Positions 22,116 through 47,960 of a DNA stretch of 64,000 bases are shown piece by piece. The DNA is from Branchiostoma lanceolatum. Lineage: Eukaryota; Chordata; Leptocardii; Amphioxiformes; Branchiostomatidae. Position numbers and translations under genes: made by a program. The stretch covers positions 4,048,501 through 4,112,500 of the forward strand of contig NC_089733.1 in assembly GCF_035083965.1 (NCBI RefSeq), written 5' to 3'. The notes below the pieces were generated by a model, which did no database searches, was not told the DNA's origin, and saw only the letters and a program-made list of their open reading frames with translations. How positions within the stretch are numbered: position 1 is the first letter of the stretch; each line of letters starts with the position of its first letter.

Positions 22116-22251
22116 GTAGTGGGTGGAGAAACAGATGTGTTGTTTATTGTCAGACGTGCTACTAGTAGCGGATGCTGACTCAAACCTGCTACTAGTACCG
22201 GATGCTAACTCAGACGTGATACTTGAACCTGATCCTGGCTCCCCCCTCGCC

Positions 22252-22581: not shown

Positions 22582-22584
22582 CTG

Positions 22585-23120
22585 AATGGAAAGGGGAAAA
22601 AACAGTATAGTCCCCGAATAGAACCCTGTGGGACTCCTGACACTACAGGAAGCCAGGATGAAAGAGCTCCTTCGATTAGAGAGATAGTCAGAGAACCAGT
22701 CTAGAAGATTAGAATGAAAGCCAAATGTTTGGAGTTTGTGTACCAGAAGATGATGCGGGATGCTGTCGAATGCTTTCGAAAAATCTAAGTATACAGCGTA
22801 TACCTGGCCACTGTGGTCAAGAATTCTGCCTTTGGTTTGTAAGGTTTCCAAAAGTCGGGTGCTTGTAGACCCCCCTTCTATAAAACCGTGCTGATGAGGG
22901 TGAATTTGTTCTTGGAGATTAGGGAATATACGATTAAGAATACAGCGTTTCATAACTTTGCTTACAACACTAAGTAACGATACAGGTCGATAATTTTCCG
23001 CACGTTCTCGACTACCTTTCTTGAAGATAGGACAGACGTTGGCTTCTTTCCATCTAGCTGGGACTCTGCCAGATTGAATACTTTTGTTGAAAATTGTAGT
23101 AAGTTGTGTCTTGGTCTCCG
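22585..23120 (-). pseudogene. LINE reverse transcriptase fragment (CR1/Jockey-like)
   Basis: The frame reads VPARWKEANVCPIFKKGSRE, RAENYRPVSLLSVVSKVMKR, IHPHQHGFIEGGSTSTRLLE, VYAVYLDFSKAFDSIPHHLL and LLDWFSDYLSNR: RT motifs 0 to A, with the catalytic Asp in YLDFSKAFD. A 20-bp deletion at 22674 (between two CTTCG repeats; the block is present in copy 2 at 59955-59974) then shifts the frame before the SGVPQGS motif. The YADD box is absent. The 5' edge coincides with a good splice acceptor (TTTTGTTTTGCAG, exon start 23120), suggesting it may be used as an exon. Confidence 0.7.
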
Positions 23121-26984: not shown

Positions 26985-27213
26985 GAAGCGAACACCTCTG
27001 CAGGATCGCTCCGCTTGAGTGCGACTAATTCCCTACTTTTACGGTAAAAGTGAGACTCAAAGTGTATCAAGCCCAAAGTTGGTAATAGATATAGCTGTCA
27101 CATATACAGCATTTAGACGCAGGATAAATCCTTAACCTTTTACAAGGTAAACTTTGTCCGAGAGTTACCCGCGCGTCAGGAGCGTCAGAAGAACAAAGAC
27201 CCAAGCGGACAAA

Positions 27214-27567
27214 ATGGCGACCGGCGACCGTGACTTGAAATCGTCTAACGAGTTATACAGCCTGCTTGGAGTTACAAGCAACGCAACAGAAGAAGAGATC
27301 GTCGCGGCGTACGGAGAGAAAGTAAAGCGACACGAGAAAAAGCTGAACTCAACCAAGGACAAGCGTCTCCAAACTGTGGCCCGTCAAGCTTTCTCCAAGG
27401 TAAGCAAAGCCTTCTATGCCTTGTCGGACAAAGAACGCCGACACAGCCGCCAAGCCACGTTGAGAGTTCGAGGCAGTTTTATTTTCCTTCCGCGAGAGAA
27501 AGTAGTCCGTTCCATGACTCCGGGCGTCAACACCCCTTACAACAGAGCTTGTCGCTGGAGTATATGA
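27214..27567 (+). CDS. J-domain-like protein, probable first exon (HPD absent)
   Basis: The ATG sits in a good context (GACAAAATGGCG). The frame reads SSNELYSLLGVTSNATEEEI, VAAYGEKVKRHEKKLNSTKD and AFSKVSKAFYALSDKERR: helices I-IV of a DnaJ domain, with LYSLLGV and AFYALSDxxRR typical. The loop has KRHEKK where canonical J domains have HPD, so it would not be expected to stimulate Hsp70. A perfect donor (AAG/GTAAGC, 27397) lies inside helix III; use of it would truncate the domain, so the reading frame beyond may be retained intron or the true exon. After codon 75 the frame no longer looks conserved. Confidence 0.5.
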   Translation: MATGDRDLKSSNELYSLLGVTSNATEEEIVAAYGEKVKRHEKKLNSTKDKRLQTVARQAFSKVSKAFYALSDKERRHSRQATLRVRGSFIFLPREKVVRSMTPGVNTPYNRACRWSI

Positions 27568-29640
27568 CCGTGTATCTTCCTGTTTTCAAGTGATTTACAA
27601 TTTTCTAGCCTCCTTTTGTACTCCTATAGATTTTTTAACTGTTAGTTAATCGCTTTCCAGTCAAAAATACGACCCGAAATCAGGTGATTTTCGTGTAATT
27701 TCCCCCCTTGTTTTTAACTTGTTGTAGATTTCAAACCAACAGGAAATCTAGTGTGTGTGAAAGAGCAAAAATTGTACTTTCTGTCAGTATATAACTTCTT
27801 ATCGATTTCGAGGGCGAAATGCAGATGCCCCCAATCCGCGCGAGGCCATGTCACACGGAGCGGTCATTTTGTTTCCAGAATAGAACGCACCACTCGTAAG
27901 CCGCGCGCGGCCATCACAGATCATTTTGCATTTCATAGCAAGGATGTTCCAAGCAGAGGTTGTGTTTCGGCTTGTTTTTGACGTCCCTTTCGGCGTTTTT
28001 GTCGGGCTTTATATCTACTAGCAACATAAAGAAACCGTGACAAAATAGAAATCCACTGCAATCTCTTGAATATAGCGATCATCTACAGACTAATGCACAC
28101 TTTATTAGCATTGTCTAACGATAACGTTATATTTTTGTTTTTGCTACGACTCTTCAAGGATAGGGTCAACGACCTAGCCCAGACGGCTGCAACCATGGTT
28201 ACTGGTAAACAGCAGAGATCCTGTGGTGTTCAATTACATTATGTAGCAACCAGCATTTAACAGATCTGGAGGTCACCATACATATGAATATGTTTGATCA
28301 AAAATATGAGAGCAGTAGTTTGCAAGACTTGACCACGTGAAGGTATACACTATGTGTCTGGTTGCAAATCTTACCTATCTCATTGCGTTAAAGTATGATA
28401 CTAACTAGAGACATATTAAGGTTTTTACTATGAAATAATCTGATCCATTTAATCAAGAAACTCTAGCAATACCAGGATTTACCCTACAGTTTAATGTTTA
28501 TATTCAATCATCATATACTTAAAGTCATACTCGGCAGACAACAGTTAACTGTGTATGAATATAAGAAATAAAAAAAGAGTTATTCTAAACTCTTTCTTCT
28601 CTGTCCTATACCTTAATCTAATGTATATAATAAATACCATTGCCACTGTCCAAAATAAATATACAAAGAGCCATATATGTTGAATTCATGCCAAACTTTA
28701 TTGAACAAATATGTGATTTCAAAATATCAATGCCGAATTGGAAACAAGACTTGTAATCTCATCTCAGGTATCTGTTTTGCCAAACATCTGACCTTTTTTG
28801 GCCAGAATGATATAATTCCAATGTCAAGTAGTAATAAAATTCCAATCATGCCGAAAGATTTGATTAACTAAAACAGCTGTCTGATGAGCATCCACAGCAG
28901 AACATCAACCTGTATAAAACAGATAATATTTCACATTATTTTATGAAAATTTGAGTATCATATAAAATTCTGCATTCACAATGATTCAAGGCATGTTATC
29001 ATATCTAAATTACATCACTCATTATCTCAATCATGATATATTGCCAATCAAAAAATTGAAAGGTATGGACAATGAGCTGCAAGAAGCATGTCCTCAGCTG
29101 ATCTGGGGTCGAACTCCACCTAATGCAAAAACAGAAAGCGTGTTAATTTCTGTTTGTCATACTTACTGTTCTTTGATTATCCATATCACATAAGTATAAA
29201 ACACTCACACTCGTTCACCATCCATTCAGCATCATTATTTTACTATCATATTAAGATTCATATATCAAATTATCATATTACATTATATCATTAAAAAAAT
29301 TATATACAGATTTATATTATATCATATATTATCATATCAAGAATTATTCATAACCCACAGGTGAGGGACTGCTGGAATAAGGAAGATGAGTCAGAACCTC
29401 CAACCTACACCCGTACCAAAGTGCGGGGTTACGCCTTTCCCGTCAACTCGGGGATCTGTGTGATGTACCCCTTGTTGACGTCAGTATGTCCGACCTTTAC
29501 AGGGGTCAGGCGCCTCTAGCTACCTAGGGGGGGCGATGGTATGGCTAAACCTAGCAGGAAGAAGGTTCTTGGAAAAAAGGAGAGGGGGAGAGAAAGGGGG
29601 TGAAAATAGTACAGAAAAGTCCAGCTTCCCCTCACCTATA
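27568..29640. other. No supported gene; 3' flank of the giant ORF
   Basis: It contains the 110-bp repeat at 27728-27836 (listed separately), AT-rich sequence and short chance frames. Toward 29345-29640 the sequence becomes GC-richer (CACAG/GTGAGGGACTGC...), with no reading frame I can name. A TTTATT at about 28690 would be an AATAAA polyadenylation signal for the minus-strand giant gene. Confidence 0.35.
27728..27836 (+). repeat. Two-block conserved sequence, copy 1 (pair with 38440-38547)
   Basis: ATTTCAAACCAACAGGA (27728-27744) and a 29-bp block containing GAGGGCGAAATGCAGATGCC (27808-27836) recur with almost the same spacing at 38440-38456 and 38519-38547. The sequence between the blocks is not conserved. 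Both copies are directly preceded by AG (TTGTTGTAG and CCTACCCAG). Confidence 0.8.
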
Positions 29641-29686
29641 CCTATTGGACCTACAAACCTATCGTACAGACCACTAATTATTACCC

Positions 29687-32600
29687 TTAGTCTATATCAG
29701 AAAATTCTGAATCTGAAATATCCTCTAATAAAGATAAACTACCACAATAAAAGTCATCAATAATATTATGATAGTCCTGATCATTATCACTACTGCTACT
29801 AGTATCTGAATCAGATTCCGTGTCTGCATGATCCTGACCTACCTGAACTTCCTCAATACAAATAGAATTTGAACAATCTAAACACCTACATCCAGGGCCA
29901 CATACCTGTCCCTTCTTGAGACACTTACACCTTTTACTGGAGCACCCACTTTTACATTTACACCCCCTGATTAAGAAATCAACTGTCTTCTGAACCTTTT
30001 CAATATTTTCTTTGGAATCCCAAATAATCATTAGATTGCCTTTTTCTATTTCCCAACCATACCTATCTAATAATACAGAAGAAAAATCCTGCTCTAAAGC
30101 CTGAGCCCAGGTAAGGTAAACCCAACAGGAACGTAACCAATGGAACCAAAGGGACTGAAATGAAGGTAAACTATTATCTTCAAACTCAATTCTTTCAAAT
30201 ATGGCACCTCTAATATTTTGTAACCAATTTTCATGACTACTTGAATTAGTCCCCTCCCTCATTTCTCTGAACATTTCAGCTGGAGATGAATACTTAAGAA
30301 AAGCTGAACGGTGTTTTTGAAAGTAAACACTACCAACTAAACGAACAAAAGCCAAGAACCCTGAATCTTTTTCTGCACAAGAAAGAGAACCACTAGTTGG
30401 TACAGAATTTCCACCAGAAATGAATTCTGAAAACTGAAAGAAAGTTTTCATAAATGATACCTTACCAAGACCAACAAAGAAGGAAACATAATCACACCCT
30501 GTGGTAATAAACAATGACTGTAATATGTGGGGTAGTATATTTCTAGAAAGGGAGGCAAGATCAGGGTCCTTGTACAAGCAAGATACCAACTCATTCACAT
30601 CCAGACATTGCCAATTTCCAGGTTCAGCTTTTTGCAAAATCACAATTCTTTTACCCATCTCCCTCACAATAGGAAGGCCCACATGATACGTGTCCGTATC
30701 AGGTGAATAAATCAATATATTTTCGTATCTGCTTGAAGCAGCATGCAGCCAAACACGAGTGTCACTTTCCTCGTGATTGGACCTACAGTCTGGATATGGA
30801 GAGATGCCATCTACAGAGGAAACAAAACACATGTCTCTTTTATCATCTATAAATGCCCCAGCTGTGAAAACTTTCTGCAGCTGCCTCAAAAAAGGTCTAC
30901 ATACTGTAAGTAAAGAACTACACAAATAAGAACATAATAGACGTTTGTTTGGACGCAAGGAAATGAACTTTCTCCAGTCTTTTGGGGTGAATGTGTGATC
31001 GGAAACTGAATCAAATAGTACTAAATTGTCACATTCTACAACAGAGTCTCTTCTACTTCTTTCAACATCTTTTGCACTAAGGCCGTTTCTATGTGGATCA
31101 TCAAATACAATGTGGACTTCATTACAACCTGACTGGAGTAAAGGCAAAACCCATTTTAGAAACAGAAAATGTGAATACTCAAGAAAGGTTCTATGCTGAC
31201 CCAAGGGGGCTGTGTTGATCAAAAACATGCCTTCTAAAACAGAACACTGGGGGGAAAAGTTAGCAGGGTACATTTTGGTAAAAGCACTAGGGTATCTAGA
31301 CTGGAAAAAAGAAGTAGCGGCTGATTTAGCTCCCTTGTGGGGAACACCATCAGCATCACATAAAGCACGAGGCAGCTCCAGAAACTGACCTAGCTGGGGC
31401 AAATCTAACAGGTGGGCTATCTCAGATAAGGGCTTATTTTGATTTTGAGACCAAGAAACTGCTCTACGATAACATTCTAAGACTATCCTCTTATCCTTTT
31501 CACTTTTTGAAATCCTAGACTTAGTCATTTTTAAGTGAGAAAAAGTCCTTAAAGACTTACGTCTTTGAGGTGCTTTATTACCTGGGCTGTTAAGGATCCT
31601 GAAACTAATAAATGTGTCTAATGAGGCTGTACCTATTTCCCTAAACTTAAGCAAGTCCTCCCTTTGAATATCAGAAATAGAAGCTCCTGTGAAGGGTTGG
31701 GCCAGGCGTCTATCTTGCACAGGAACAGAAGAAATGTGGGCCTCTACAACTTTGTTTGCATAATAAACAATATTCTGCCTCTCCTGTTCAATAATGGTGG
31801 GACTTAGGTCATTTTGAGTTCTAAGGTTAGACTTAACAAGAATCTGTTGTTTTACTTTCTTAATCAATCTAGCTCGATATGGTAAAAACAGAACAAGATC
31901 TTCAATGACAAACTTATTGGGCCCTGTTATAACTTGTTTAGTGTCGCGGTTAATTAACATTTCATGACCCTCATCTAATGCTACACTTGAATAGTTAACA
32001 GCATTAATACTGGTAACGAATCCCCCTTCTTGAAAATATCTAAGAATATGATCTGGACAAGACAATAAATCAGAAAGATGCAAAGGTATAATTCTAGAGT
32101 ATATTACATGGTCAAATGCATGGAAAATGGGTGCCATCTTTTTGTATGCATACAAACGCAAATCCCAATTCCCTGATCTAATCGCTATGTAAAGAGAAAT
32201 GTATGCCATAAAATCATCATGAACAAATCTATGCCAAAACAAAAATACTTCATCACGAGCACATGCACTAGAACAGAATGCAGCAAAATCATCCTCTATA
32301 CCTTCTAAGTCAATTTTCAATAATTCTTGTCTTCTTACAAAGTTTTCTCTACTGAAATCTGGGTCACCAAAGTGTGGTTCAGACTCTAAAAATACTCTTA
32401 CCTTTTCAATAATAGTGTCTGCTGAAAAAGAACATCTTGATGAACAATGATCTGTACAGTTCCTCCTATGTTCAAGAAAAGATTCAATTTGGCATCTATA
32501 GAAGGCCTCCCATACTTGAACCAAAAATTTATGAGTACGTTTAAAATTCTTACACAAGCCAACTGAAAGTAATGTCTGTCCTTTTATTCTACCCGAGGCT

Positions 32601-35600
32601 ACCTGTTTCAATCCTCCCTCCCAATAAACTTTCATTAATGCATGCTGGTAATTTTTCAAAGTATGCCAATCACCTGGAAATAGAATTAACCAACTTAAAG
32701 CGGGGCCATACTCCTGTTTCAATTTAAGAAGGTGGTCAAAGGTTTTCGCATCCCCAACAACAACTAAGTATTCAACATCACGTCCAACATTAAAGGAATT
32801 GTAAAGGAAATCAAGAGCTTTTAAAATTGTTTCCTTACAGTCAGCATTTTCATTCATTATTGACAAGTAGGCAATATTAGATTTTTCTGTGACAGGGTCC
32901 CTTTCTAAAAATAGTTTACATTTCAAACCAGGTAACTTAGGAGAACAATCTTTTAGATCTGATACACATCTTTCAAGCTGATAAAATAAAACTTCAGAGT
33001 TAAATGCATGTGACGCTTTAATTTCTTTCTCAGATATGCTAAACTGTTCTAAGGTGAGGGAACTGGGGGTAGATGGGATTATAGACTGAACACAAGATGG
33101 GGGTGTAAGGGATAAAGTACCCTCAATTTCCTTCGGACACCTTTTTCTTTGCCTAAACTTTGAAGTTAGTTTTATCTTTTTAATCACAGGCTCCTCAATT
33201 TCAGTTACATTATCTACACCTACAGAGATATCTTGACTAGTAGTAGTACATACAGATGCTGAAGTTGGCCTAGAAACAAGAAGAGATTTAGGTTTGGGTT
33301 GGACGGCTTGAATAGAAGTACCATTCCACCCACGGGGACTACCTGTCACAGCTGCATGGGGGCTACCACTATTTATATTGTCTATGGAAGCTACAGTAAA
33401 GGAACCTTCTGTCAAATTATAGTAATTATCTTCCAATTTCAATTGATCTAACATGCAAGCAAGAAATCTTTTATGAGAATCATTTGAGCAACATACTCCA
33501 AGACGATTTAACAGTTGCATTAGATCATAAGACTGGCTATAAGAATGAATCAATTCTGAATTAATCATATGGAAAGGATAACTGCACTTACCCTCAGACA
33601 CAATAAAGAAAATAAGGAAAGTTGCAAAAAGTCGTCTTAAAAACTTGGAGCTATGGCTAGAATTATCCTTAAGAAATGCTAAATAATGTTGATTCATATC
33701 AAATGTTTCAAAATCAGACATGGGAATTTCAGATTTTTGCATAGTTAATACAACAATAAAGTTCCATACAACAGGATTTATTTCTTTTGAAATTTGCAAA
33801 AGGTCAATTTCATGCAAGGAAGTTGGATTCTTAACATACTTATCAATAAATTTTGATGATTCTTTATGAATCAAATTATTCATGTACATTAAAGAAGATA
33901 GCAGGCTAGAATTAAGTATGTCTTTGTTATCATGATCATCTGTAAACATAGAAGCAACAGTAGACTGAATTGACTTTAACTCAAGATCACGCTTGAAAGT
34001 ATTTAATCTTGCAGTATATAAAGCCAAATGGAGGGATTCAATTAAATCACATTCTCTATAGTATAACAATAAACCTAATTTGTTGGATTTACTTGAACTT
34101 TTGTGGATCGAAAGAAAGTCTCCCAGATCACTCAATAATCCAACCAACAGCCATTTAGCTTCAAAACAAAATGCATCAGCTTCATCACACTTTTCTTTAT
34201 CTTTAAATTCCTTAATTAGCATTTGAATATTTTCTACATATAAATCATAGGCATCAACAAGAAGCAGAGATTTGTTCTCCAAAAACATTTCACCTACCTT
34301 ACAAGAAACTTTGTGCAAAGCTAATTGTGGTACATTTTCTGGGCTATGTTTTAAATCAAATTCTTTTAACATTTCTAATCGTTTTTCTAGATTTTCCTCA
34401 CCCTTAACAAGATTACCTGATCTATATAAACACTGATAACAATAGTTACATAAAATTGAACCTTCTGACAAATTTGAGTCGGCCAATTCTAAAGCTGATT
34501 GTGGTATATCTAATTTGGGACAGAATCGTTTCCTTTTATGGGACTTTATTACCTTACAACAATGTACACATTTATCTTCATCACAAAATCTATAAAACTG
34601 ATAATAATGAAATGTACACATTGAAATAGAATTTGGTAAAGTGCTAAAACCTGCTGCTAAGTCTGAAATGGAGCTAAGATAAGACATCATATCATCAACA
34701 GAAACATCTTTACGTTCATGGTCGGCCAATGCATGGCACAAACCAAAGTCAGACATAAAACATTTTTTTTCTGGCACTGTTTGAGAGAGCTTCTGTGAAG
34801 TGTCAGTTGGTGAATTAGAAACTGGAGTTTTGGCCTGTAATCGTCTAAACTTACGCTCACAAGAACGGCAAACACAGTCAGTAATTGAAAGTTCTGTATT
34901 ATCACTTACCCAATTTCTAAGTACTTCATTCCATCCCTGTGGATGCCTATACTCATCAAATTGAAATGTAGATGGTTTCTTACAGTAGGCACATGCTGTG
35001 AAACATGGCCTATCTGGATGGAAATTAATAGTTTTACCGCCCCCACGACCAAAAAATGTTACAGATACCGTCTTACCATGTACTTCTACAATCTTATTTT
35101 CATCACCGAGAAAACAACCATCTAAACTAAGGTTTTTACATGAAATACTGAGTCCACATACCTCACTTACCATCTTTTGCAATTTACACACCTGAATACA
35201 TTTGCTACTTGCCTGTACAGTAGATAACTTGCCTTGGAAATTAATAAAGAATGCATAGACTAAACTCTCTTCAACATCACACTTATCTCCTCTCTCCTCC
35301 TCACTACTCTTACCTGGTACATCACACTCATCTCCTACCCTGTCCTCACTACTCTTACCTGGTACATTACACTCATCTCCTACCCTCTCCTCACTACTCT
35401 TACCTGGTACATTACACTCATCTCCTACCCTCTCCTCACTACTCTTACCTGATACAACATTACACTCATCTCCTACCCTCTCCTCACTACTCTTACCTGG
35501 TACATTACACTCATCTCCTACCCTCTCCTCACTACTCTTACCTGGTACATCACACTCATCTCCTACCCTCTCCTCACTACTCTTACCTGGTACATTACAC

Positions 35601-37795
35601 TCATCTCCTACCCTCTCCTCACTACTCTTACCTGGTACAACATTACACTCATCTCCTACCCTCTCCTCACTACCCTTACCTGGTACATTACACTCATCTC
35701 CTACCCTCTCCTCACTACTCTTACCTGGTACAACATTACAACACTCATCTCCTACCCTCTCCTCACTACTCTTACCTGGTACATTACACTCATCTCCTAC
35801 CCTCTCCTCACTACTCTTACAGGTCACAACATTACACTCATCTCCTACCCTCTCCTCACTACTCTTACAGGTACCTACCTGTTTAACCTGTTCTACCCAC
35901 CCTGAAGGATTAATGGGCCCACTATATAACATTCTCACCTCTAGCTTAGTAGCTACTGGGTACTTGTCCCTCCTCTTACCTGTTTTACCATTAACCTTCT
36001 TACACCTAGTCTGTCCCCTGCTAAACCCCCCTGATACAGCTGTACTCTCCCTGCCCTTCCTAAGCTTACAACTACTCCACCCTGTAGGACATATTACATA
36101 ATGTACATTTTCCTTATGACAATCAATCCCTTCCACAACTTCACCTTTATCTTGAGCTACTTTAAACTGACACATCCTTCTACCACTCGTCCTCTTCCAC
36201 TCCCTTTTACTCATTAGAACCCCCCTGGTCCTGAAAGGACCCTTCCCTGCACTAACCCCCTCTACCTTCCCTGGGACCCTCCTAGACTTAGTAACTGGCA
36301 TCCCCCTTGCTATGGAAGGACCCTTCCCTGCACTAACCCCCTCTACCTTCCCTGGGGTCTGTCTAGGCTTGTGGACAGGAACCTCCCTGGCCCTGGAGGG
36401 ACCCTTCCCTGCACTAACCCCCTTTACCTTCCCTGGGACCTTCTTAGGCTTAGGGACAGGCACCCACCATGCTATGGAAGGACCCTTCCTTGAACTACCC
36501 CCCTCTACCTTCCCTGGGGTCGGTCTAGGCTTACTAGTAGGGACAGGAACCTCCCTGGCCCTGGAGGGACCCTTCCCTGCACTAACCCCCTTTACCTTCC
36601 CTGGGACCCTCTTAGGCTTAGGGACAGGCACCCACCATGCTATGGAAGGACCCTTCCTTGAACTACCCCCCTCTACCTTCCCTGGGGTCGGTCTAGGCTT
36701 ACTAGTAGGGACAGGAACCTCCCTGGCCCTGGAGGGACCCTTCCCTGCACTAACCCCCTCTACCTTCCCTGGGACCCTCTTAGGCTTAGGGACAGGCACC
36801 CACCATGCTACGGAAGGACCCTTCCTTGAACTACCCCCCTCTACCTTCCCTGGGGTCGGTCTAGGCTTACTAGTAGGGACAGGAACCTCCCTGGCCCTGG
36901 AGGGACCCTTCCCTGCACTAACCCCCTCTACCTTCCCTGGGACCCTCCTAGGCTTAGGGACAGGCATACTCCTTGCTGGGGAAGGACCCTTCCTTGCACT
37001 ACCCCCCTCTACCTTCCCTGGGGTCGGTCTAGGCTTACTAGTAGGGACAGGAACCTCCCTGGCCCTGAAAGGACCCTTCCCTGCATTAACCCCCTCTACC
37101 TTCCCAGGGGTCCCCCTAGGTGCTCCTCGCACTACCCTAGACCACTCTCCCTGTCCACGGTACTTCCCTGACTTCAGTTCCACTCCTGGATGAGCCCTTC
37201 TCCTTCCTCCATCTGCCTCTAACCCTGGCCACTCCTCATCCCTGAACACATAGCGGTCCTCACGCTCACAGCTGCGACGGTGCAGCTGCAAGTAGAAGTT
37301 CAAACGGGCTGAGAGATACCGAGCAAAACTCAAATTACCAGCTCTACTCAAATGCAAACCATCAACTGAAAACATGGCCCGGTCAGCCCGGCTACCATTG
37401 TCAAGGAAAAACACACCCTGGCTTGAACACAGGCTAAGCAAATGAGCGTTCAACTCAAGGCGCCTCCTGTCATAGACCTCATAGTCAAACCTAGGCAGGA
37501 CGCTAGAGATGACAACAGAGGCTGACGGGAAGCGGGACTTGGTAACAGAAATAAGAGAACTGAAATCATCAAGAGTCCGGCTGAGTGGACGGTACATGGG
37601 GAGATTATTGGTCCCCACATGCACGAACACCACATCCGGCTCAACAAAAGGATGACGTGAAATATCAGAAGTCAAATCATATACTGAAGCTCCAGGGTGC
37701 GCATTAAGGGAAAATAAAATGTCAGGAGAGAAGGTGGCATGATTAGACAGATATTTACCAATCGAGTCACTGAACGCCAGGATGATCTGAAACAA
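29687..37795 (-). CDS. Giant composite protein: SGNH hydrolase, tandem repeats, transposase-like core, FEN/PIN-like motifs, CXC domain
   Basis: This is an 8.1-kb frame without a stop. In order: SGNH esterase (FSDSIGKYL; HVGTNNL; DGLHLSRAG, residues 8-170); basic PGKVEG repeats of about 57 residues (230-520); 15-residue SSEERVGDECNV repeats (640-845); cysteine-rich blocks (CFTACAYCKK, CVCRSCERKFRRL; then CxxC pairs near 1080-1150); a core with VVVGDAKTF (1679) and FPGDWHTLKNYQ (1710); FDDPHRNGLSAKDVERSRRD (2230), HEESDTRVWLHA (2342) and YSPDTDTYHVGLP (2368), like a FEN/asteroid-type nuclease; and CKCKSGCSSKRCKCL with GPGCRCLDC (2607-2640), a tesmin/TSO1 CXC zinc motif. The C-terminus is acidic. 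The first residues follow an acceptor (TTCTTGTTTCAG), so an upstream exon is needed. Similar CXC/nuclease proteins are multi-copy in invertebrates; a transposon origin is inference. Confidence 0.85.
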   Translation of the reverse strand: MFQIILAFSDSIGKYLSNHATFSPDILFSLNAHPGASVYDLTSDISRHPFVEPDVVFVHVGTNNLPMYRPLSRTLDDFSSLISVTKSRFPSASVVISSVLPRFDYEVYDRRRLELNAHLLSLCSSQGVFFLDNGSRADRAMFSVDGLHLSRAGNLSFARYLSARLNFYLQLHRRSCEREDRYVFRDEEWPGLEADGGRRRAHPGVELKSGKYRGQGEWSRVVRGAPRGTPGKVEGVNAGKGPFRAREVPVPTSKPRPTPGKVEGGSARKGPSPARSMPVPKPRRVPGKVEGVSAGKGPSRAREVPVPTSKPRPTPGKVEGGSSRKGPSVAWWVPVPKPKRVPGKVEGVSAGKGPSRAREVPVPTSKPRPTPGKVEGGSSRKGPSIAWWVPVPKPKRVPGKVKGVSAGKGPSRAREVPVPTSKPRPTPGKVEGGSSRKGPSIAWWVPVPKPKKVPGKVKGVSAGKGPSRAREVPVHKPRQTPGKVEGVSAGKGPSIARGMPVTKSRRVPGKVEGVSAGKGPFRTRGVLMSKREWKRTSGRRMCQFKVAQDKGEVVEGIDCHKENVHYVICPTGWSSCKLRKGRESTAVSGGFSRGQTRCKKVNGKTGKRRDKYPVATKLEVRMLYSGPINPSGWVEQVKQVGTCKSSEERVGDECNVVTCKSSEERVGDECNVPGKSSEERVGDECCNVVPGKSSEERVGDECNVPGKGSEERVGDECNVVPGKSSEERVGDECNVPGKSSEERVGDECDVPGKSSEERVGDECNVPGKSSEERVGDECNVVSGKSSEERVGDECNVPGKSSEERVGDECNVPGKSSEDRVGDECDVPGKSSEEERGDKCDVEESLVYAFFINFQGKLSTVQASSKCIQVCKLQKMVSEVCGLSISCKNLSLDGCFLGDENKIVEVHGKTVSVTFFGRGGGKTINFHPDRPCFTACAYCKKPSTFQFDEYRHPQGWNEVLRNWVSDNTELSITDCVCRSCERKFRRLQAKTPVSNSPTDTSQKLSQTVPEKKCFMSDFGLCHALADHERKDVSVDDMMSYLSSISDLAAGFSTLPNSISMCTFHYYQFYRFCDEDKCVHCCKVIKSHKRKRFCPKLDIPQSALELADSNLSEGSILCNYCYQCLYRSGNLVKGEENLEKRLEMLKEFDLKHSPENVPQLALHKVSCKVGEMFLENKSLLLVDAYDLYVENIQMLIKEFKDKEKCDEADAFCFEAKWLLVGLLSDLGDFLSIHKSSSKSNKLGLLLYYRECDLIESLHLALYTARLNTFKRDLELKSIQSTVASMFTDDHDNKDILNSSLLSSLMYMNNLIHKESSKFIDKYVKNPTSLHEIDLLQISKEINPVVWNFIVVLTMQKSEIPMSDFETFDMNQHYLAFLKDNSSHSSKFLRRLFATFLIFFIVSEGKCSYPFHMINSELIHSYSQSYDLMQLLNRLGVCCSNDSHKRFLACMLDQLKLEDNYYNLTEGSFTVASIDNINSGSPHAAVTGSPRGWNGTSIQAVQPKPKSLLVSRPTSASVCTTTSQDISVGVDNVTEIEEPVIKKIKLTSKFRQRKRCPKEIEGTLSLTPPSCVQSIIPSTPSSLTLEQFSISEKEIKASHAFNSEVLFYQLERCVSDLKDCSPKLPGLKCKLFLERDPVTEKSNIAYLSIMNENADCKETILKALDFLYNSFNVGRDVEYLVVVGDAKTFDHLLKLKQEYGPALSWLILFPGDWHTLKNYQHALMKVYWEGGLKQVASGRIKGQTLLSVGLCKNFKRTHKFLVQVWEAFYRCQIESFLEHRRNCTDHCSSRCSFSADTIIEKVRVFLESEPHFGDPDFSRENFVRRQELLKIDLEGIEDDFAAFCSSACARDEVFLFWHRFVHDDFMAYISLYIAIRSGNWDLRLYAYKKMAPIFHAFDHVIYSRIIPLHLSDLLSCPDHILRYFQEGGFVTSINAVNYSSVALDEGHEMLINRDTKQVITGPNKFVIEDLVLFLPYRARLIKKVKQQILVKSNLRTQNDLSPTIIEQERQNIVYYANKVVEAHISSVPVQDRRLAQPFTGASISDIQREDLLKFREIGTASLDTFISFRILNSPGNKAPQRRKSLRTFSHLKMTKSRISKSEKDKRIVLECYRRAVSWSQNQNKPLSEIAHLLDLPQLGQFLELPRALCDADGVPHKGAKSAATSFFQSRYPSAFTKMYPANFSPQCSVLEGMFLINTAPLGQHRTFLEYSHFLFLKWVLPLLQSGCNEVHIVFDDPHRNGLSAKDVERSRRDSVVECDNLVLFDSVSDHTFTPKDWRKFISLRPNKRLLCSYLCSSLLTVCRPFLRQLQKVFTAGAFIDDKRDMCFVSSVDGISPYPDCRSNHEESDTRVWLHAASSRYENILIYSPDTDTYHVGLPIVREMGKRIVILQKAEPGNWQCLDVNELVSCLYKDPDLASLSRNILPHILQSLFITTGCDYVSFFVGLGKVSFMKTFFQFSEFISGGNSVPTSGSLSCAEKDSGFLAFVRLVGSVYFQKHRSAFLKYSSPAEMFREMREGTNSSSHENWLQNIRGAIFERIEFEDNSLPSFQSLWFHWLRSCWVYLTWAQALEQDFSSVLLDRYGWEIEKGNLMIIWDSKENIEKVQKTVDFLIRGCKCKSGCSSKRCKCLKKGQVCGPGCRCLDCSNSICIEEVQVGQDHADTESDSDTSSSSDNDQDYHNIIDDFYCGSLSLLEDISDSEFSDID
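35263..35880 (-). repeat. 45-bp coding minisatellite in the giant ORF
   Basis: About 13-14 copies of a 45-bp unit (plus strand CTCATCTCCTACCCTCTCCT and following) encode PGKSSEERVGDECNV with variants. Unit length varies only by multiples of three (45, 48, 51), so every indel keeps the frame. This pattern is expected under selection for an open frame. Confidence 0.95.
36220..37110 (-). repeat. ~171-bp coding tandem repeat in the giant ORF
   Basis: Units encode KVEGVSAGKGPSRAREVPVP, then TSKPRPTPGKVEGGSSRKGP and a SIAWWVPVPKPKRVPGK half-unit. Four to five full units and several half-units are visible, highly alike at the DNA level. They are very basic and proline/glycine rich, probably a disordered nucleic-acid-binding spacer. 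Confidence 0.95.
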
Positions 37796-38697
37796 GAAAT
37801 GAGATACATCAATGCATCATTTTTTCTAGATTCAGGACACATAAAGTTACCAAATATTACTGTTGTCTCAAATATTTTTTTTTGCAATGTATACAGTATA
37901 GTATGTATTTCATCATTCTATTGCTGCTTTTTTGCAATTTACAGTATGGGCGAAAATATTTTTTGGAAAAAATTTGCTACATAGTAAGCCACCTGCGTTC
38001 ATGTTGCAAACCTGATCATACTACCAACCATGAACCTACGTTGTTATGCAAGTTTGTTTTTCTTTGCCTGACAACGTCAGACATGTGACTGTATTGGCGG
38101 GAAATTATGGTCCCGAGCAGGCCATGTTAACACATTGAACGATATTATAACGTTATCTTTCACAGCTAAATTCTCGGCTGTTTTCAATCAAAATCCCTCC
38201 CAGCACACAGAAAAACTCAGAATCAAAATATTTGTCACGTTATGTCGACATTTTACATCGAATCATAAAGGTTAGATCCTCGATAGCTGTCAAATTTACA
38301 AGAAATACTCGCGACAAATCACATGTCACACGTTTAAGCTGTAAAAACGTCATAGAACTCGCACTACGAACGCCATCGTGTAGGCGAAAATCGCTCAAAA
38401 AAGGGCCCTAAGTAGACATGGAATTTTAAACCTACCCAGATTTCAAACCAACAGGATTTTCACATGGGATATAGACGAAGGTTAAACAGTCCTGACGCAC
38501 TATCAATTGATAACAGAATCGAGGGCGAAATGCAGATGCCCCCAATCTGAAAATCGCCGAAATTTTAACTCTTTACTGTGCTGCCATTTTGCTAATTTCA
38601 CTATGTACCAAATTTGATCATGAAACTAGTTAAAATCCTTGTAAAACCGCACAAAAATGGATTTAATGGAGAGCACACAGTAAACACGTCCGTCACT
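37796..38697 (-). other. Inferred intron 1 of the giant gene
   Basis: It lies between a possible leader exon donor (38697) and the acceptor at 37793. There is no reading frame. It includes the conserved two-block repeat at 38440-38547. In the opposite orientation it would be LINE 5' flank or UTR. Confidence 0.35.
38440..38547 (+). repeat. Two-block conserved sequence, copy 2 (pair with 27728-27836)
   Basis: See 27728-27836: both blocks are identical in the two copies (17 and 29 bp) while the roughly 63 bp between them is not conserved. It lies 264 bp upstream of the LINE ORF1 start. Confidence 0.8.
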
Positions 38698-38730
38698 TAC
38701 CGCCATGGTGTCCAAGAGGCCGGATGTCGT
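38698..38730 (-). CDS. Possible leader exon of the giant gene
   Basis: On the minus strand ATGACGACATCCGGCCTCTT... encodes MTTSGLLDTMA and ends at a consensus donor (GCG/GTAAGTG). Its phase (0) fits the acceptor at 37793, giving MTTSGLLDTMA-IILAFSDSIGKYL, which supplies an ATG for a frame that otherwise has none near its start. The join is inferred; no transcript evidence is available. Confidence 0.4.
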
Positions 38731-38810
38731 CATGAAATCAGCTGTCAAAGTCGGATGAAATTTCATCGGCGGCGCGAAGGCGGCGCGGGAAATTTGAGTC
38801 GGCGCATACT
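38731..38810. promoter_or_regulatory. Possible bidirectional promoter between the giant gene and the LINE
   Basis: About 80 bp separate the putative leader exon (minus) from the LINE ORF1 ATG (plus). The stretch is CG-rich (GGCGGCGCGAAGGCGGCGCG) and contains the short palindrome GATGAAATTTCATC. No TATA box is seen. If both starts are right, one promoter region would serve two mobile-element-like genes. Confidence 0.3.
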
Positions 38811-41186
38811 ATGGACCGCGGAGGGATACATAAGAAAATAAAAACTGTTCGAAACGCGTTCGATTCACTGCGTGGCTTGGCGGCTGGACAGAAATATGAC
38901 AAATCAAACAAGATAGTAGAGCCAGGAAAACGCGACAAACGGATCAAGCCGAATGACGACTACTTCGTGGAGTTCAATGACAACTGTGTTACAATTTATA
39001 TTCCGTCAGAATCGGACAAACATTGGATAGAGATTCTTGAAACACACTACAGCTTGCCTACCGATGACAAGGGCAAACATGGCCATCAACTCAACGTACC
39101 ATACCATGATCCTACCACAGACGAACTTATCGGCTCAGTAACGCTACATGTATACCATACATGTAAGATCCTAGTACAGGGACCAGCCTATTTGCTATGG
39201 GTGCTGGACATGTTCGAAAGGTTGAAGAAGACGCTAGAAACAAACTGCACCACGGCGGAAGATGAAGAGTCCCGATGCGAGGACATTGTCTGCAATAAGT
39301 GCGAACGGCCAGGCCCAGAAGATGATGGTATCATTCAATGTAACATTTGCCAGAATTGGTATCACTATGCATGCACGGGCGTACACGAGTTCCTGCTACA
39401 TGAACTGATAAAGAATGCAGAGAGCGAGTTTGTCTGTAATGAATGTTCTTATGACAGCATTATGTCCGACCCGAAGTTGATAGGCGAAACATTCCCTGAG
39501 GACGCAAGTGAAAAAGAAACTATACCAAAACAGTTTATTGGCGAATCAACACCAAACGAAAAAGATGGCAACAACAATGACAAGCTGGACATACTACAAT
39601 GTAGTGTAGACAAGCTAGAAGCCATTACAATGAGCAGAATTGTACATGAGAATAACAATATCGACACGCTGTCAGCACGTCTTTCTCACCTTGAGGGCCT
39701 GTTATCCAAAACAATGGAAACCTCCGGTGAGTCAGTGAAAGAGAAAAGTGCCATCGAAGGGCTGTCAAAACGAGTGAAGTCCCTAGAAGCAGAAAACAAA
39801 AACCTTCGGAAAAGAATCACGGCATTGGAAAAGAAGTATACAACAGATGAAAGCCAATCATCAGATCCAAAAGACGCAGACAACGAGCCGTCCGATCCAC
39901 AAGCTGAAACCTTTGAGAGCAACATTCCGACAAACAACAGATACCAGGTGCTCGGCGACAACAGGCCCATGACAAAGGGACAATCCTCTCACTTAACAAG
40001 TGACCATTGTCATGACAATCCCCTTGACAATGGCCAGTCGCAGACACGATCAGCACGAAGGCGTTCAGAGGATTCAGAAGATGGCAGTTTGGCGGAGATA
40101 GTCATCATTGGTGACTCGAATACTAGAGGCATTATTCCCAGCGTGCTCTACCCGGGTAAGGAAACTGCCAAACACTCAGCTATGAAAGTTCCACAGGCCA
40201 CAGACCTGATCACAACAACGACCTACTCGGATCCCAAGTGCATTGTCTTCCACGTGGGGACAAATGACATTCGAGAGGAAAGGGCGGCACACGGTGTTAC
40301 AGAGAACCTCAGACAGCTGGTCGCAACAACACACACAAAGTACCCGAATGCAAAGATCGTTATGTCTGCCATACCCCCGAGGAACGACCAACAACTGATG
40401 GAAGTCACGCGGGACGTAAATGCCTTCCTACATATTCTCAACCAAGAAACCTCCTACATCAGTCTGGCCGACAACAACAATCTAGGTGAAGATGGATCCA
40501 TCAAGAGTAATCTGTACAAACGAGACGGGTACCACCTAAACAGGGCCGGTCTGAAAGTACTCGCGGCTAGCTGGAAGACGGTAATCCACCCCATTTTAGG
40601 CATGGGTATGTACCACAAAGGACAAAGGAGGGGCAGCACCCTTGCATCGCGCTCGGAAGTGAGTCAGACACAGTCTCAAGAGAAAAACAGGGAACGTACA
40701 TCACAAGGACGACGACCCAATCGACCAAATTCAGATTCGAGACAGAACAACCGACCGAACCCAGATTGGCGCCCACGCGACGGACCGAACCCAGGCTGGT
40801 TTCCACGGGACGGACCGAACCCAGAATGGTTCCCTCGCGACAGACCAAACCCAGATTGGCGCCCACGCGACGAACTAAACCCAGGCTGGTTCCCACGGGA
40901 CGGACCAAACCCAGGCTGGCTACCACGCCGGGACAGACCGAACCCAGAATGGTTGCCACGTGACGGTCCGAACCCAGGCTGGCGCCCACGCGACAGACGA
41001 GACCCAGACGACCGACCAAACTGGCTTCCACACAACCAAGACTGGCACCGTGAACCGAAAACGTTCAACCGTCCGTTCCACGGCTATGACGACTGGTTCC
41101 CGACAGCACTGGACGGACCTAGTTCGTGGTCTCTACCAAAGCGCTTCGAAGACTACCCTGCCCGGCGTCAGAACTACAACTACTGA
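38811..41186 (+). CDS. LINE ORF1: PHD finger, coiled coil, SGNH esterase, RPNPxW repeats
   Basis: 791 codons from ATG to TGA. Residues about 158-215 form a PHD-type finger (CNKC, CNIC, WYHYAC, CNEC). Residues about 255-350 are coiled coil ([20 protein letters not shown]). Residues 428-600 are an SGNH hydrolase with IIGDSNTRG (Ser), FHVGTNDI (Asn) and DGYHLNRAG (Asp/His). Residues 643-740 are eight or nine 14-residue repeats such as [18 protein letters not shown]1-like LINEs are known to carry PHD and esterase ORF1s; ORF1 binds RNA in the retrotransposition complex, and the role of the esterase is not settled. ORF2 begins 235 bp downstream on the same strand. Confidence 0.9.
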
Positions 41187-41420
41187 GGGTATTATCATCT
41201 CACACTATATCCTTAACGTTTCATTTTATATAAAACAAGAACCGACATGTGATAATTTAAGAAGACCATATGCTAAATCTGTAGTAATCAGACGTAGGAA
41301 CTGCGTACTAAGTTTATGCAATGATATTGCACATTCAAGTACATGTATAATTAAGTAAAACTAACTTATCGTAAAAGTAGGGACAAAGTCGATACTCATG
41401 GATTAATAGAACGAGCACCA

Positions 41421-44400
41421 ATGCCAGCTAGGTCATTGAACATAGGGTTCTGGAATATCCATGGATTAGGTAAGAAACTTGAAGAATGTAGCTTTAGAAG
41501 TAATTTAGAAAAACTAGATCTCTTCTCTCTTATTGAAACCTGGAGTAACGAATCTTCAGAAGTTAACATTCCAAATTATCAACATTTCTCGTCTCTGAGA
41601 CAAAAACAACGAAAAGCAAGAAGGAATTCAGGCGGAATAATTTTTTACTACAAAAATGAACTCTCTAAATACATCAAAAGAGAGCGTGGAACTTCTGAAT
41701 GTAAAGACTTACTCTGGGTTCGCATATCGAAAGACCTGTTAGCGCTCTCCAAAGATGTATTTATATGTAGTGTCTACATTAGCCCTATATACTCCACCAT
41801 ACACAAAAGGGCGGAGGATTCCATATTCGACATTTTAGAACAAGATGTAGCAGCCTTCACGTCAAAAGGCCATGTAATTCTCGGGGGAGACTTTAACAGT
41901 AGGATAGGGTCCTTGCAAGACTTCACTGAAAAAGAGCACGTAGATTTTGAACTAGAGCCAGTGCCGCTCACCCCAAACGTAGATATTCCTAGAAATTTTA
42001 CCGACAGAAACCCGGCTAATTCTTTTGGTAAATGTCTTGTAAACTTATGCGCCCAGGCTGACCTGCGCATTCTAAACGGACGTGTCCTGGGCGACTTAAA
42101 TGGCAGATTCACGTGCTACCAGCCTAATGGTTGTAGCACGGTAGACTACGCCATCTCTAGTAGCTCACTGTTTCACAACTTAAATATGTTTAAAGTCCAT
42201 CCACTTACAGAATTTTCTGACCACTGTATGGTTTCTGTGAATATACGCGCATTAGCGCACTCACAAGAAAACGTGAAAACTAAACAAAACACACGCTCCT
42301 TCCCATGTCGGTTTGTCTGGGGTCCCGATTCTGGCGATAAATTTATAAAAGCGCTAAGTAGTTCAGCGATCTCCCAGAAACTGGAAAAGATTGTATCCCT
42401 AGATAGCAATGACACAAAGTCAACAGCAAAGACAAACGAGAATGTACGCGAGCTTCAAGACATTCTAGTGTTGACAGGAAAGATGTCTCTCCAAATGAGA
42501 GGTAAGAAAAAGACAAAAGGATTCAAAAGTAACAAAAAATGGTTTGATAAGACTTGTTACGAAGCTCGCAAAGAATTGCAAAATGTGAGGTACCTTTTAG
42601 TAAACAATCCCAAAAATCCAATCGTAAGAGGTAGTTACTTCAGAAAGAAAAGGGAATTCAACAAACTGATCCGAAAGCGCAAAAGAGAGTATGAAAGTAA
42701 TTGTCTGATTGAACTCCAAAAACTTCAAGACAATAACCCGACAGCTTTTTGGAATCTACTTAAAGAACTAAAGAAAACCGACTCAACTAATCAAGAAGAC
42801 ATACCAGTAGATTCATGGGTGGAACATTTTAAAACCCTTCATGAAAAATCTAGATTAAAAAGACAAGATTTTGATGCCACCTTTGAAAAAGTAATTCTAA
42901 GCAAACTTGAAGTACTACAAAACCATAACCAATCCCAAGGCCCTCTAGACTATCTTATTACAGAATCAGAAGTCAATATTGCCATCCAAAGACTCAAGAA
43001 CAAAAAAGCCAGTGGTGAGGACATGATAACAAATGAAATGCTAAAAGCAGGTAAAACTCTCTTACTTCGTCCTCTTTTAAACTTGTTTAATAATGTCCTC
43101 TCAAGCGGAACCTTTCCCCTTGACTGGTCCAGAAGCTATATTGTCCCAGTATTTAAAGCAGGGAGAAAAGATGACCCAAACAACTATCGAGGCATCTCCA
43201 TATCAAGCTGTCTCGGAAAACTATTTACCTCGATTCTAAACAAGAGACTATCAAACTTTCTCGACGAAAACGACATTCTAAAACCAAACCAGACAGGATT
43301 CCGGAAGAACTACAGAACTTCAGACAACATATTTTTACTAAAAACCTTAATCTCTAAATATACTCAGTCAAGAAAACAGCTGTTCGCTTGCTTTGTAGAC
43401 CTCTCAAAGGCTTTTGACTCCATTTGGCACGGAGGTCTGCTATACAAACTTTTATCAACAGGTATATCTGGAAGATTCTTTGATGTAATGGAAAACCTAT
43501 ACAGCCAATCCAAAGCCAGTGTCAAAACAAATCGAGGTCTGAGTGAAACTTTCCCCGTCGAAATCGGAGTCAGACAAGGCTGTGTCCTAAGTCCTTCACT
43601 ATTCAATCTGTACATCAGCGATCTAGCAAACGAACTAAATACAGAAGATCTAGATTCCCCCCTACTAAACACAACCAAAGTATCTAGCCTTTTCTATGCA
43701 GACGACCTTGTCCTGTTATCAACAAGCCAACAAGGTCTTCAAAAAGCAATAAACACTTTAAGCCTTTACTGTAAAAAATGGAAGTTATCAATAAACCTAA
43801 ACAAAACTAAAATAATGATATTTAATAAAAGAGGACACTTGTTCTCAAACTTTAAATTCCAATTGTTTAACCAAAACATAGAGGTTGTATCGTCTTATAG
43901 TTATCTAGGAGTGATGTTTACAACGGGTTGTACTTTCAGCACCGCTATGAAAACCCTGCAAAAGAAGGCTTTACGAGCGCTCTTCAGTATTAAATCAACT
44001 CTTGGAAACAGCAATCCCCCTATATCAGTGTACACTAAGCTATTCGATGCATGTGTAGTTCCAATATTAACTTATGGTGCGGAGGTATGGGGCAAGATTG
44101 GGCTAAACGATAATTCTCCAATTGAACAAGTACATCTCAAATTCTGTAAAGCAATCCTGGGCGTAAGAAAAAATGCCAGCAACCTTGCCACAAGAGCAGA
44201 GCTTGGTAGATATCCCCTCTGGATTGAAGTGTATACTAGAATCTATTCATACTATAAAAGATTAGTTAGAGAAATGCCGAAAGATAGCTTACAATATGAA
44301 GCTTTTTTAGTACAGCAGGACCTACATAGGAGAAAGATACCATGCTGGCTTTCAAATATTAGTAAAATCTTGGAGGAGTCAGGCTTTGCCTACCTTTTAC

Positions 44401-44924
44401 TTAACAAAGACCGAAACACGCTATCCGCTCAATCTGAACTAAAACAGAGGCTGAAAGACAACTTTCTTCAACATTTCTACTCACAACTTAATTCTTATGG
44501 TGAAAAAGGGAAGAATGGAAACAAATTGAGAACTTACAAAAAATTCAAGATTACGTATGAAAAAGAAAAATATCTAGATATACAAAACTCTAACTATCGC
44601 CGAGCCATGACTAAACTAAGGATCAGCGATCATCCATTGCAAATTGAAGTTGGTAGGTACAACCAGACTCCACCAAATAACAGAATGTGTACTTTCTGTG
44701 ACAAGGATTGTATAGAAGATGAAATACATTTTATCTTAGAATGCTCACTATACGCAGACATGCGCAGATCCCTTGTAAGTCCCATACGACTAGACAAAAA
44801 ATATACGCATCTTAAAAATAACGAGCTATTCACATGTATCATGTCATCTAAAAACGACGATATAATTGGAAAACTATGTGAATTTGTGTACAAATGTTTC
44901 AAGAAGAGAGAAGAGACTCTGTAG
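41421..44924 (+). CDS. LINE ORF2: APE endonuclease and reverse transcriptase
   Basis: 1167 codons. The APE-type endonuclease is N-terminal: IGFWNIHGLGKK, LIETW, GGIIFYYKN, ILGGDFNSRIG, VDYAISS and FSDHCMVSV (about residues 8-275). RT follows: NNYRGISISSCLGKLFTSIL, NQTGFRKNYRTSDNIFLL, CFVDLSKAFDSIWHGGLLYK (first catalytic Asp), IGVRQGCVLSPSLFN, and LFYADDLVLLS (catalytic YADD) at about residue 758. The thumb reads WKLSINLNKTKIMIFN. A C-terminal CTFCDKDCIEDEIHFILECS is a CCHC-like finger. All catalytic residues are present. It nicks target DNA and copies the element RNA at the nick. Confidence 0.95.
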   Translation: MPARSLNIGFWNIHGLGKKLEECSFRSNLEKLDLFSLIETWSNESSEVNIPNYQHFSSLRQKQRKARRNSGGIIFYYKNELSKYIKRERGTSECKDLLWVRISKDLLALSKDVFICSVYISPIYSTIHKRAEDSIFDILEQDVAAFTSKGHVILGGDFNSRIGSLQDFTEKEHVDFELEPVPLTPNVDIPRNFTDRNPANSFGKCLVNLCAQADLRILNGRVLGDLNGRFTCYQPNGCSTVDYAISSSSLFHNLNMFKVHPLTEFSDHCMVSVNIRALAHSQENVKTKQNTRSFPCRFVWGPDSGDKFIKALSSSAISQKLEKIVSLDSNDTKSTAKTNENVRELQDILVLTGKMSLQMRGKKKTKGFKSNKKWFDKTCYEARKELQNVRYLLVNNPKNPIVRGSYFRKKREFNKLIRKRKREYESNCLIELQKLQDNNPTAFWNLLKELKKTDSTNQEDIPVDSWVEHFKTLHEKSRLKRQDFDATFEKVILSKLEVLQNHNQSQGPLDYLITESEVNIAIQRLKNKKASGEDMITNEMLKAGKTLLLRPLLNLFNNVLSSGTFPLDWSRSYIVPVFKAGRKDDPNNYRGISISSCLGKLFTSILNKRLSNFLDENDILKPNQTGFRKNYRTSDNIFLLKTLISKYTQSRKQLFACFVDLSKAFDSIWHGGLLYKLLSTGISGRFFDVMENLYSQSKASVKTNRGLSETFPVEIGVRQGCVLSPSLFNLYISDLANELNTEDLDSPLLNTTKVSSLFYADDLVLLSTSQQGLQKAINTLSLYCKKWKLSINLNKTKIMIFNKRGHLFSNFKFQLFNQNIEVVSSYSYLGVMFTTGCTFSTAMKTLQKKALRALFSIKSTLGNSNPPISVYTKLFDACVVPILTYGAEVWGKIGLNDNSPIEQVHLKFCKAILGVRKNASNLATRAELGRYPLWIEVYTRIYSYYKRLVREMPKDSLQYEAFLVQQDLHRRKIPCWLSNISKILEESGFAYLLLNKDRNTLSAQSELKQRLKDNFLQHFYSQLNSYGEKGKNGNKLRTYKKFKITYEKEKYLDIQNSNYRRAMTKLRISDHPLQIEVGRYNQTPPNNRMCTFCDKDCIEDEIHFILECSLYADMRRSLVSPIRLDKKYTHLKNNELFTCIMSSKNDDIIGKLCEFVYKCFKKREETL

Positions 44925-45016: not shown

Positions 45017-45046
45017 TCATTGTCATTGTCATTGTCATTGTCATTG
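45017..45046 (+). repeat. (TCATTG)n terminal repeat of the LINE
   Basis: Five TCATTG units (TTCATTGTCATTGTCATTG...) end the element just after an AATAAA. Such simple tails are used for priming by CR1/L2-type RTs. Confidence 0.9.
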
Positions 45047-45049
45047 TAT

Positions 45050-45600
45050 AATATGAAAAATAATTAAGGGTATTTGGGAGACTGACAACATTTTTTTATA
45101 TAAAAAACAACGACCCCAAACCACCCAAACAGTCTAATAATCTTCACGACAGTGATGATTACATGAGATGCTGTTGTACGTGTATTGTGAGCTGCCTGGG
45201 GGATGACTCTTCTCCTGTCCTCCTCTGCCCTCAAGGATTCCTAGATGTACCACATTCTCTCTTCAGGGGTCCACCCTGGTCTTTTATCCATCAGTTTTTG
45301 TGCTGCATGCTTCCATACTGATGCCCTTGACCTCGTGAAGGTCATACAGAATTGCCTGCAACATAGATATAACAGGCCATGTATTGACCCTGCAGGGAAA
45401 TATATTCACAGGCATCCTCAATTACTCCAATGAAACATAGTTAAATGTTCATTAATTTGGACCTATTTCAGTACAAGTCCTTATCTGTGCATGGGACCTC
45501 TGGAAATTAGCTAAGAACTATACAGTTCAGGCCAAGAGCCGGAATTTCTGGTAAGAGTGCTAAGTTCGTGCATTCAGTATGTCGGGTTTCAATGCAATCT
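45050..45600 (-). other. Mostly unassigned; possible exon near 45240-45340
   Basis: A minus frame reads WKHAAQKLMDKRPGWTPEER, then MWYI, before losing coherence. It may be a small exon of a transposase-like gene, but has no recognised family. The remainder is AT-rich with no features. Confidence 0.25.
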
Positions 45601-45609
45601 GTGTTGCAT

Positions 45610-47926: not shown

Positions 47927-47960
47927 AGTGGCTCCTCATTATTTCAGGAGCAGGACTTAG

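Follow-up and report, generated by a model that had tools for sequence, protein, structure and literature searches.

The stretch of DNA analysed here (the window) comprises 64,000 nucleotides of the Branchiostoma lanceolatum genome (contig NC_089733.1, positions 4,048,501 to 4,112,500) and carries on its minus strand a two-exon gene for a composite protein, in which an SGNH esterase-like domain, two tandem-repeat arrays and a predicted ubiquitin-like domain precede a putative DDE transposase, a predicted 5' nuclease and a CXC-like stretch (Table 1). The gene lies within an apparently intact composite DNA transposon, which in turn interrupts the first open reading frame (ORF1) of a long interspersed nuclear element (LINE).

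The limits of the transposon are marked by terminal inverted repeats (TIRs) that match at all 16 positions and by a 4-bp target-site duplication (TSD). Four pairs of exact 16-bp inverted repeats spaced 3-20 kb apart, two of them overlapping, occur in the window, and only the TIR pair has matching 4-bp flanks (1 of 4); 60 simulated windows contained on average 0.45 exact 16-bp inverted repeats and none with matching flanks. Removal of the transposon together with one copy of GACA restores an open LINE ORF1 of 841 residues: the left flank holds the start of a J domain (PF00226, 9.6e-9), ending in ALSDKERR, and the right flank continues the same ORF1. Because a single ORF1 is split between the two flanks, the transposon sits in a CR1-like LINE. 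Collectively, the ends, the duplication and the empty site identify 27444-38886 very probably as a cut-and-paste DNA transposon of the autonomous type, and bear out an earlier note on this DNA, made from the letters alone, which had suspected a one-gene mobile element. The 3' region of the transposon (27444-29686) contains no ORF longer than 76 residues lying wholly within it. Two subterminal repeats of about 110 bp, approximately 70% identical and sharing an imperfect palindrome of 29 identical bases, are possibly transposase-binding sites. Two other placements were rejected. An origin of exon 1 in the 5' untranslated region of the LINE (antisense, ORF0-like) had been prompted by a roughly 45-bp gap up to the point where the LINE appeared to start, but the TIR and TSD place the transposon end inside LINE ORF1; as for a right end beyond the LINE, the only candidate in 45041-48000 was an A/T-rich match at 12 of 16 positions.

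Table 1. Features of the transposon, its gene and the host LINE (positions in the window)
Feature	Position	Strand	Basis or remark
Entire DNA transposon, 11,443 bp, gene on minus strand	27444..38886	-	TIR, TSD, empty-site ORF
Left TIR, CAGCCGCCAAGCCACG	27444..27459	+	16/16 match with right end
Right TIR	38871..38886	-	16/16 match with left end
Left TSD, GACA	27440..27443	.	flank comparison
Right TSD, GACA	38887..38890	.	flank comparison
Subterminal repeat, left copy	27726..27836	+	repeat comparison
Subterminal repeat, right copy, inside intron 1	38438..38547	+	repeat comparison
Exon 1	38701..38766	-	in-frame GT-AG junction; identical exon in P0012, similar in P0014 (B. floridae)
Intron 1 (GTAAGT...TTTCAG)	37787..38700	-	GT-AG, in frame
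Exon 2, single unbroken frame up to stop codon	29687..37786	-	ORF listing and splice sites
Candidate optional in-frame intron, 450 nt, excising the SGNH core	37309..37758	-	GT-AG sites and frame; P0012 junction
SGNH esterase-like domain (DS, GA, GTN, DGLH blocks)	37292..37786	-	PF13472 1e-9; PDB 4c1b 1.7e-10; alignment
Tandem array 1, 168-bp units (PGKVEG...KGPS peptide)	36217..37109	-	repeat scan; in frame
Linker domain, conserved (SKREWK...VHYVICPTGWSSCKLRKGREST...SGWVEQ)	35882..36220	-	kept in P0002, P0012, P0016, P0017
Tandem array 2, 45/48-bp units (KSSEERVGDECNV peptide)	35272..35868	-	repeat scan; in frame
Predicted ubiquitin-like domain ending RGG-G, about residues 850-926	35036..35269	-	AlphaFold2 model and fold comparison
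Cysteine-rich (probable zinc) module opening the transposase part	34829..35017	-	cysteines common to P0002-P0004, partly P0016; no named family matched
DUF6589, putative RNase H-like DDE transposase (D1479, D1689, D1716-W-H, D1948/E1949, E1952)	31847..33409	-	PF20231; invariant columns; secondary structure
FEN/XPG/XRN-type 5' nuclease domain (predicted)	30023..31327	-	predicted structure and fold search
CXC (tesmin/TSO1)-like stretch	29852..29968	-	PF03638 3.5e-4, below cut-off
Host LINE ORF1, 5' part with J domain, stopping at the insertion	27214..27443	+	PF00226 9.6e-9
Host LINE ORF1, remainder (PHD, coiled-coil-like, SGNH, repeats)	38887..41186	+	Pfam and empty-site ORF
Host LINE ORF2 (endonuclease, reverse transcriptase)	41421..44924	+	Pfam
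Host LINE 3' tail, (TCATTG)n	45017..45047	+	repeat scan

The frame at 29687-37816 runs uninterrupted between two stops for 2,709 codons, whereas the longest chance ORF in 200 base shuffles of this stretch reached 207 codons (mean 119). Splicing of exon 1 to exon 2 gives a product of 2,721 residues; residue numbers below are those of the stop-to-stop translation (P0001), to which 12 are added for the spliced protein. The earlier note had drawn attention to the stop-free frame of about 8.1 kb, to SGNH blocks at its N terminus and to the two in-frame tandem arrays, all of which stand, but had ended the gene at 38730, a position that falls inside exon 1, across the intron, and within a mobile unit that is larger than it had assumed. 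The exon junction is also present in a separate B. lanceolatum gene model (P0012), so that splice sites and an independent model both support a gene of two exons. Excision of the candidate optional intron recreates the P0012 junction and may reflect a regulated isoform. A plus-strand ORF of 293 residues (36312-37193) was rejected as a gene, since it coincides with array 1, of which it seems to be a by-product.

The C-terminal half of the protein contains the presumed transposition machinery. Residues 1649-1916 match DUF6589 (PF20231, 5.1e-8), a family for which no function is annotated. The putative catalytic acids are invariant in an 11-row core alignment and the predicted secondary structure is compatible with RNase H, so that conserved acids and predicted strand order point to a putative RNase H-like fold. 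The core alignments include the full set of 10 core relatives (P0003, P0010 and P0011 being incomplete), and another alignment covers 9 chosen relatives; a search of PDB sequences with the transposase core, as a single sequence or as a profile, gave no matches. For residues 2164-2598, both the structural model and the fold search predict a 5' nuclease fold, accompanied by acidic motifs, and in a viral structure library five of the six rows at E <= 0.001 are named XRN-type 5'-3' nucleases, the sixth being unnamed. The motifs HEESDTR, SPDTDTY, GDAKTF and GDWHT are present as the earlier note had listed them, and its FEN-like reading of HEESDTR and SPDTD is backed by the predicted structure. The domain resembles FEN1, Exo1, XPG and XRN nucleases in predicted fold and acidic motifs; it differs in its position behind a transposase and in sequence, with 8-15% identity among the matches listed, and its activity is a prediction. 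The CXC tail claimed in the same note fares less clearly: PF03638 does match residues 2617-2651, but at 21.3 bits it stays under the cut-off of 23.5, whereas relative P0005 exceeds it (2.3e-5, 25.0 bits).

At the other end of the protein, the PF13472 match (residues 39-161) is above cut-off, and the alignment shows the catalytic blocks D16-S17, G41, N69, D151 and H154; eleven rows span G41, and 10 of them retain it, with LINE ORF1 as the exception. This alignment contains 10 of 14 SGNH relatives plus LINE ORF1 (P0021, P0022, P0023 and P0025 were left out), and the PDB search was therefore repeated with the window sequence alone. The AlphaFold2 (AF2) model of the linker and array 2 mostly has predicted local distance difference test (pLDDT) values below 50. 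Between array 2 and the transposase part, a stretch absent from the feature list of the earlier note is predicted by the AF2 model and by fold comparison to adopt a beta-grasp fold; G925-G926 close the aligned ranges opposite the ubiquitin C terminus in several fold-comparison rows, and GGG is kept in all five rows that have the stretch (window, P0002, P0003, P0004 and P0016). The ubiquitin family itself (PF00240) appeared only at 0.13, below cut-off, in relative P0020; a second Pfam scan covered the relatives other than P0002 and P0016.

Two side observations touch this domain. Three of the ten DUF6589 relatives carry an OTU-like insert, namely P0004 (about residues 830-1000), P0011 (about 120-285) and P0009, with catalytic-type Cys and His in the first two and lost in P0009, which was left out of the insert alignment (2 of 3 inserts) as decayed. 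P0004 and P0011 share the DUF6589 core with the window element, and P0004 also the ubiquitin-like stretch ending in GGG; the window element differs in having no such insert. In addition, amphioxus proteins P0020, P0021 and P0022 combine SGNH with a stretch ending in L-K/R-GGG that resembles the ubiquitin-like domain, without DUF6589, and are a possible source of the N-terminal module.

Comparison with related protein records and gene models bears on the reality of the fusion. Over the core, the window protein is 84% identical to P0002 (B. floridae x B. japonicum) and 81% to P0003 (B. floridae), and only 46% to B. lanceolatum P0004, which belongs to another branch of the family. On the SGNH side, two B. 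lanceolatum proteins that carry SGNH-side sequence, array and linker are nearer to the window than are the B. floridae proteins: P0012 (547/643 identical residues; linker 107/110) and P0019 (276/294 in the best segment; linker 109/110). By itself this closeness makes B. lanceolatum the probable source of the window. P0016 (B. floridae) is colinear with residues 9-980, a span that takes in SGNH, the arrays, the linker and the ubiquitin-like domain and extends as far as the first zinc finger of the transposase. Because of this colinearity and of the exon junction shared with P0012, the continuous SGNH-to-transposase frame is unlikely to be a misassembly. Several loci of B. floridae carry the SGNH half, since P0013, P0014 and P0016 lie on three different contigs; a second whole element was not seen among the relatives examined. 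The 3' ends of P0012 and P0016 run into MFHAS1 and a PF04326 (AlbA_2) domain, respectively; no convincing counterpart of either tail exists in the window, and the tails may have arisen through the joining of gene models or the capture of exons. As no SGNH is listed in the sea-urchin relative or in six further core relatives (with P0010 and P0011 incomplete), the N-terminal half may be an acquisition of the amphioxus lineage.

The element is probably Academ-like and nearest to AcademX, whose nuclease is of the XPG type, an assignment based on TSD length and nuclease as set against Academ transposons as described. AcademX elements are reported to have TSDs of 3-4 bp and AcademH elements of 9-10 bp, linked to the encoded nuclease and helicase (PMC10045372). 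The window element, with a TSD of 4 bp, falls within the AcademX range and is likewise a DNA transposon in which a putative DDE transposase is combined with a nuclease; it differs in carrying two repeat arrays, an SGNH domain at the N terminus and the ubiquitin-like RGG domain. SGNH esterases are known from LINE ORF1 proteins (PMC3905857, PMC4120745), and ZfL2-1 (PDB 4c1b), representing the CR1/L2/RTEX LINEs, is the closest solved relative of the window domain (1.7e-10; PMC3905857). The window domain has the catalytic Ser, Gly, Asn, Asp and His blocks of these proteins, but block I reads SDS, not GDS, and the domain precedes repeats and a ubiquitin-like domain and is fused to a DNA transposase. 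The Texim genes of fish Helitrons likewise exemplify an SGNH moved by a DNA transposon, although as separate captured genes beside the Helitron (PMC4021074), and the GDSL ORF3 of bdelloid long terminal repeat (LTR) retrotransposons and Terminons is an element-recruited esterase with a proposed membrane role, but a separate ORF of retroelements (PMC5408684, PMC6431247). No report of an SGNH-transposase fusion was found among the open-access titles and abstract openings listed, and the open-access literature searched yielded nothing on an Academ transposase with an esterase, on Academ with XPG or on DUF6589; within that literature, the joining of an esterase and ubiquitin-like unit to DNA-cutting machinery was not found described.

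Taken as a whole, the data are probably best explained by an Academ-like cut-and-paste transposon inserted in ORF1 of a CR1-like LINE and equipped with an accessory N-terminal half. The C-terminal half would carry out transposition: zinc-finger and CXC modules would bind DNA, the D/D/E domain (D1479, D1689, and E1949 or E1952) would cut and join at the TIRs, and trimming of flaps or overhangs or cleavage of the second strand would fall to the FEN/XPG/XRN-type nuclease. The N-terminal half, possibly gained in the amphioxus lineage, could be accessory to these steps. By analogy with LINE ORF1 proteins, the SGNH esterase might bind anionic membrane lipid, a role that we regard as conceivable but short of an even chance. 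More tentatively still, cleavage might occur at the RGG in the position of the ubiquitin C terminus, where deubiquitinases supplied by the host, or in some relatives by the element itself as OTU-like domains, would separate the transposase and the esterase part. That all of this combines into a self-separating polyprotein, in which a LINE-type membrane-lipid esterase and an RGG module cut by host or sister-element OTU-like deubiquitinases release a DDE transposase with its FEN-type nuclease, is unlikely.

Several findings weigh against parts of this interpretation. The fold-search list was filled by the nuclease domain and covered that part of the protein, not the RNase H part, and the Academ placement compares described features, not sequences. 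Even with E values as high as 1 allowed, no Pfam family matched the 171 residues that include the ubiquitin-like stretch (34787-35299), whose model has a mean pLDDT of 48 and weak Foldseek E-values (best 0.021; none <= 0.001). According to precomputed Pfam lists, SGNH and DUF6589 occur together in no protein record (0 of 10 core relatives, 0 of 14 SGNH relatives). P0013-P0015 terminate inside array 1, and the halves may therefore be separate genes in some copies, while P0012 omits the SGNH core through the 450-nt in-frame splice, the sites of which also exist in the window. P0012 and P0019 could, moreover, be alleles of the window locus; since the MFHAS1 part of P0012 is unmatched in the window, its location at another place is favoured but not proven.

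The last of these findings feed an alternative in which the SGNH/ubiquitin-like half is normally separate, whether as a second ORF of the element or as a gene captured from the host or a LINE, and runs into an Academ-like transposase frame in this copy only. It would account for the SGNH-only models P0013-P0015 (396-498 residues, in B. floridae and the B. floridae x B. japonicum hybrid), for P0002 beginning downstream of SGNH and for P0020-P0022; yet P0016 passes colinearly from SGNH to the zinc finger, the window frame is unbroken over 2,709 codons, and exon 1 is common to P0012 and similar in P0014, leaving this alternative improbable. A chance frame or assembly artefact uniting unrelated pieces could draw on the repeat arrays, which are prone to misassembly, but given that shuffled sequence never exceeded 207 codons and that independent gene models share the junctions, it is hardly credible.

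Whether the element belongs elsewhere is a separate matter. That DUF6589 lacks an annotated function and goes unmentioned in the open-access literature searched would suit a new, non-Academ superfamily with a similar nuclease-plus-DDE plan, but the 4-bp TSD and accessory nuclease agree with AcademX reports (PMC10045372), and we consider such a superfamily unlikely. Domestication into a gene useful to the host would fit the long intact frame, the orthologue-like P0002 in another Branchiostoma (84% over the core) and the failure to see further whole copies in the same genome among the relatives examined; set against the TIRs and target duplication intact around this copy, transposon ends that have not been lost, and its insertion in an otherwise open LINE ORF1, it is very unlikely.

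If the element does make such a self-separating polyprotein, a cut-and-paste transposon would exploit contact with lipids or membranes to reach the nucleus, to spread outside the cell or to transfer horizontally, as suggested for the esterases of LINEs and other retroelements. LINEs, LTR elements and Terminons repeatedly contain SGNH esterases, which also occur beside Helitrons; their membrane role is proposed but unproven and in LINEs is tied to RNA particles. A DNA transposase has no RNA particle, and its esterase must therefore serve some use outside retrotransposition, which makes the membrane hypothesis directly testable. Similarly, the ubiquitin-like RGG junction and the OTU-like inserts of sister elements suggest that eukaryotic transposons may process their proteins via the ubiquitin system. 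With its defined ends, recognisable target and intact gene, the element lends itself to transposition assays in cell culture.

The surroundings of the transposon deserve brief mention. A J (DnaJ) domain opens ORF1 of the host LINE, ahead of PHD and SGNH; the one survey of LINE ORF1 types consulted contains no mention of a 'J domain' (PMC4120745), the lone 'DnaJ' match there being a run-together reference. The coiled-coil-like matches in this ORF1 fall below cut-off, and a target duplication of the LINE itself was looked for with nothing convincing emerging. A short inverted match links 27016-27047, upstream of LINE ORF1, with 41366-41398 in the ORF1-ORF2 spacer. The nest of LINE and transposon is flanked by a direct duplicate of about 3.9 kb (18801-22737 and 56102-60037; 95.7% identity, 37.3 kb apart), in which one ORF looks reverse-transcriptase-like by eye. 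Just past the LINE tail, an inverted repeat with 178-nt arms (45605-45782 and 46060-46237; 96% complementary, 277 nt apart) resembles a miniature inverted-repeat transposable element or a fold-back element.

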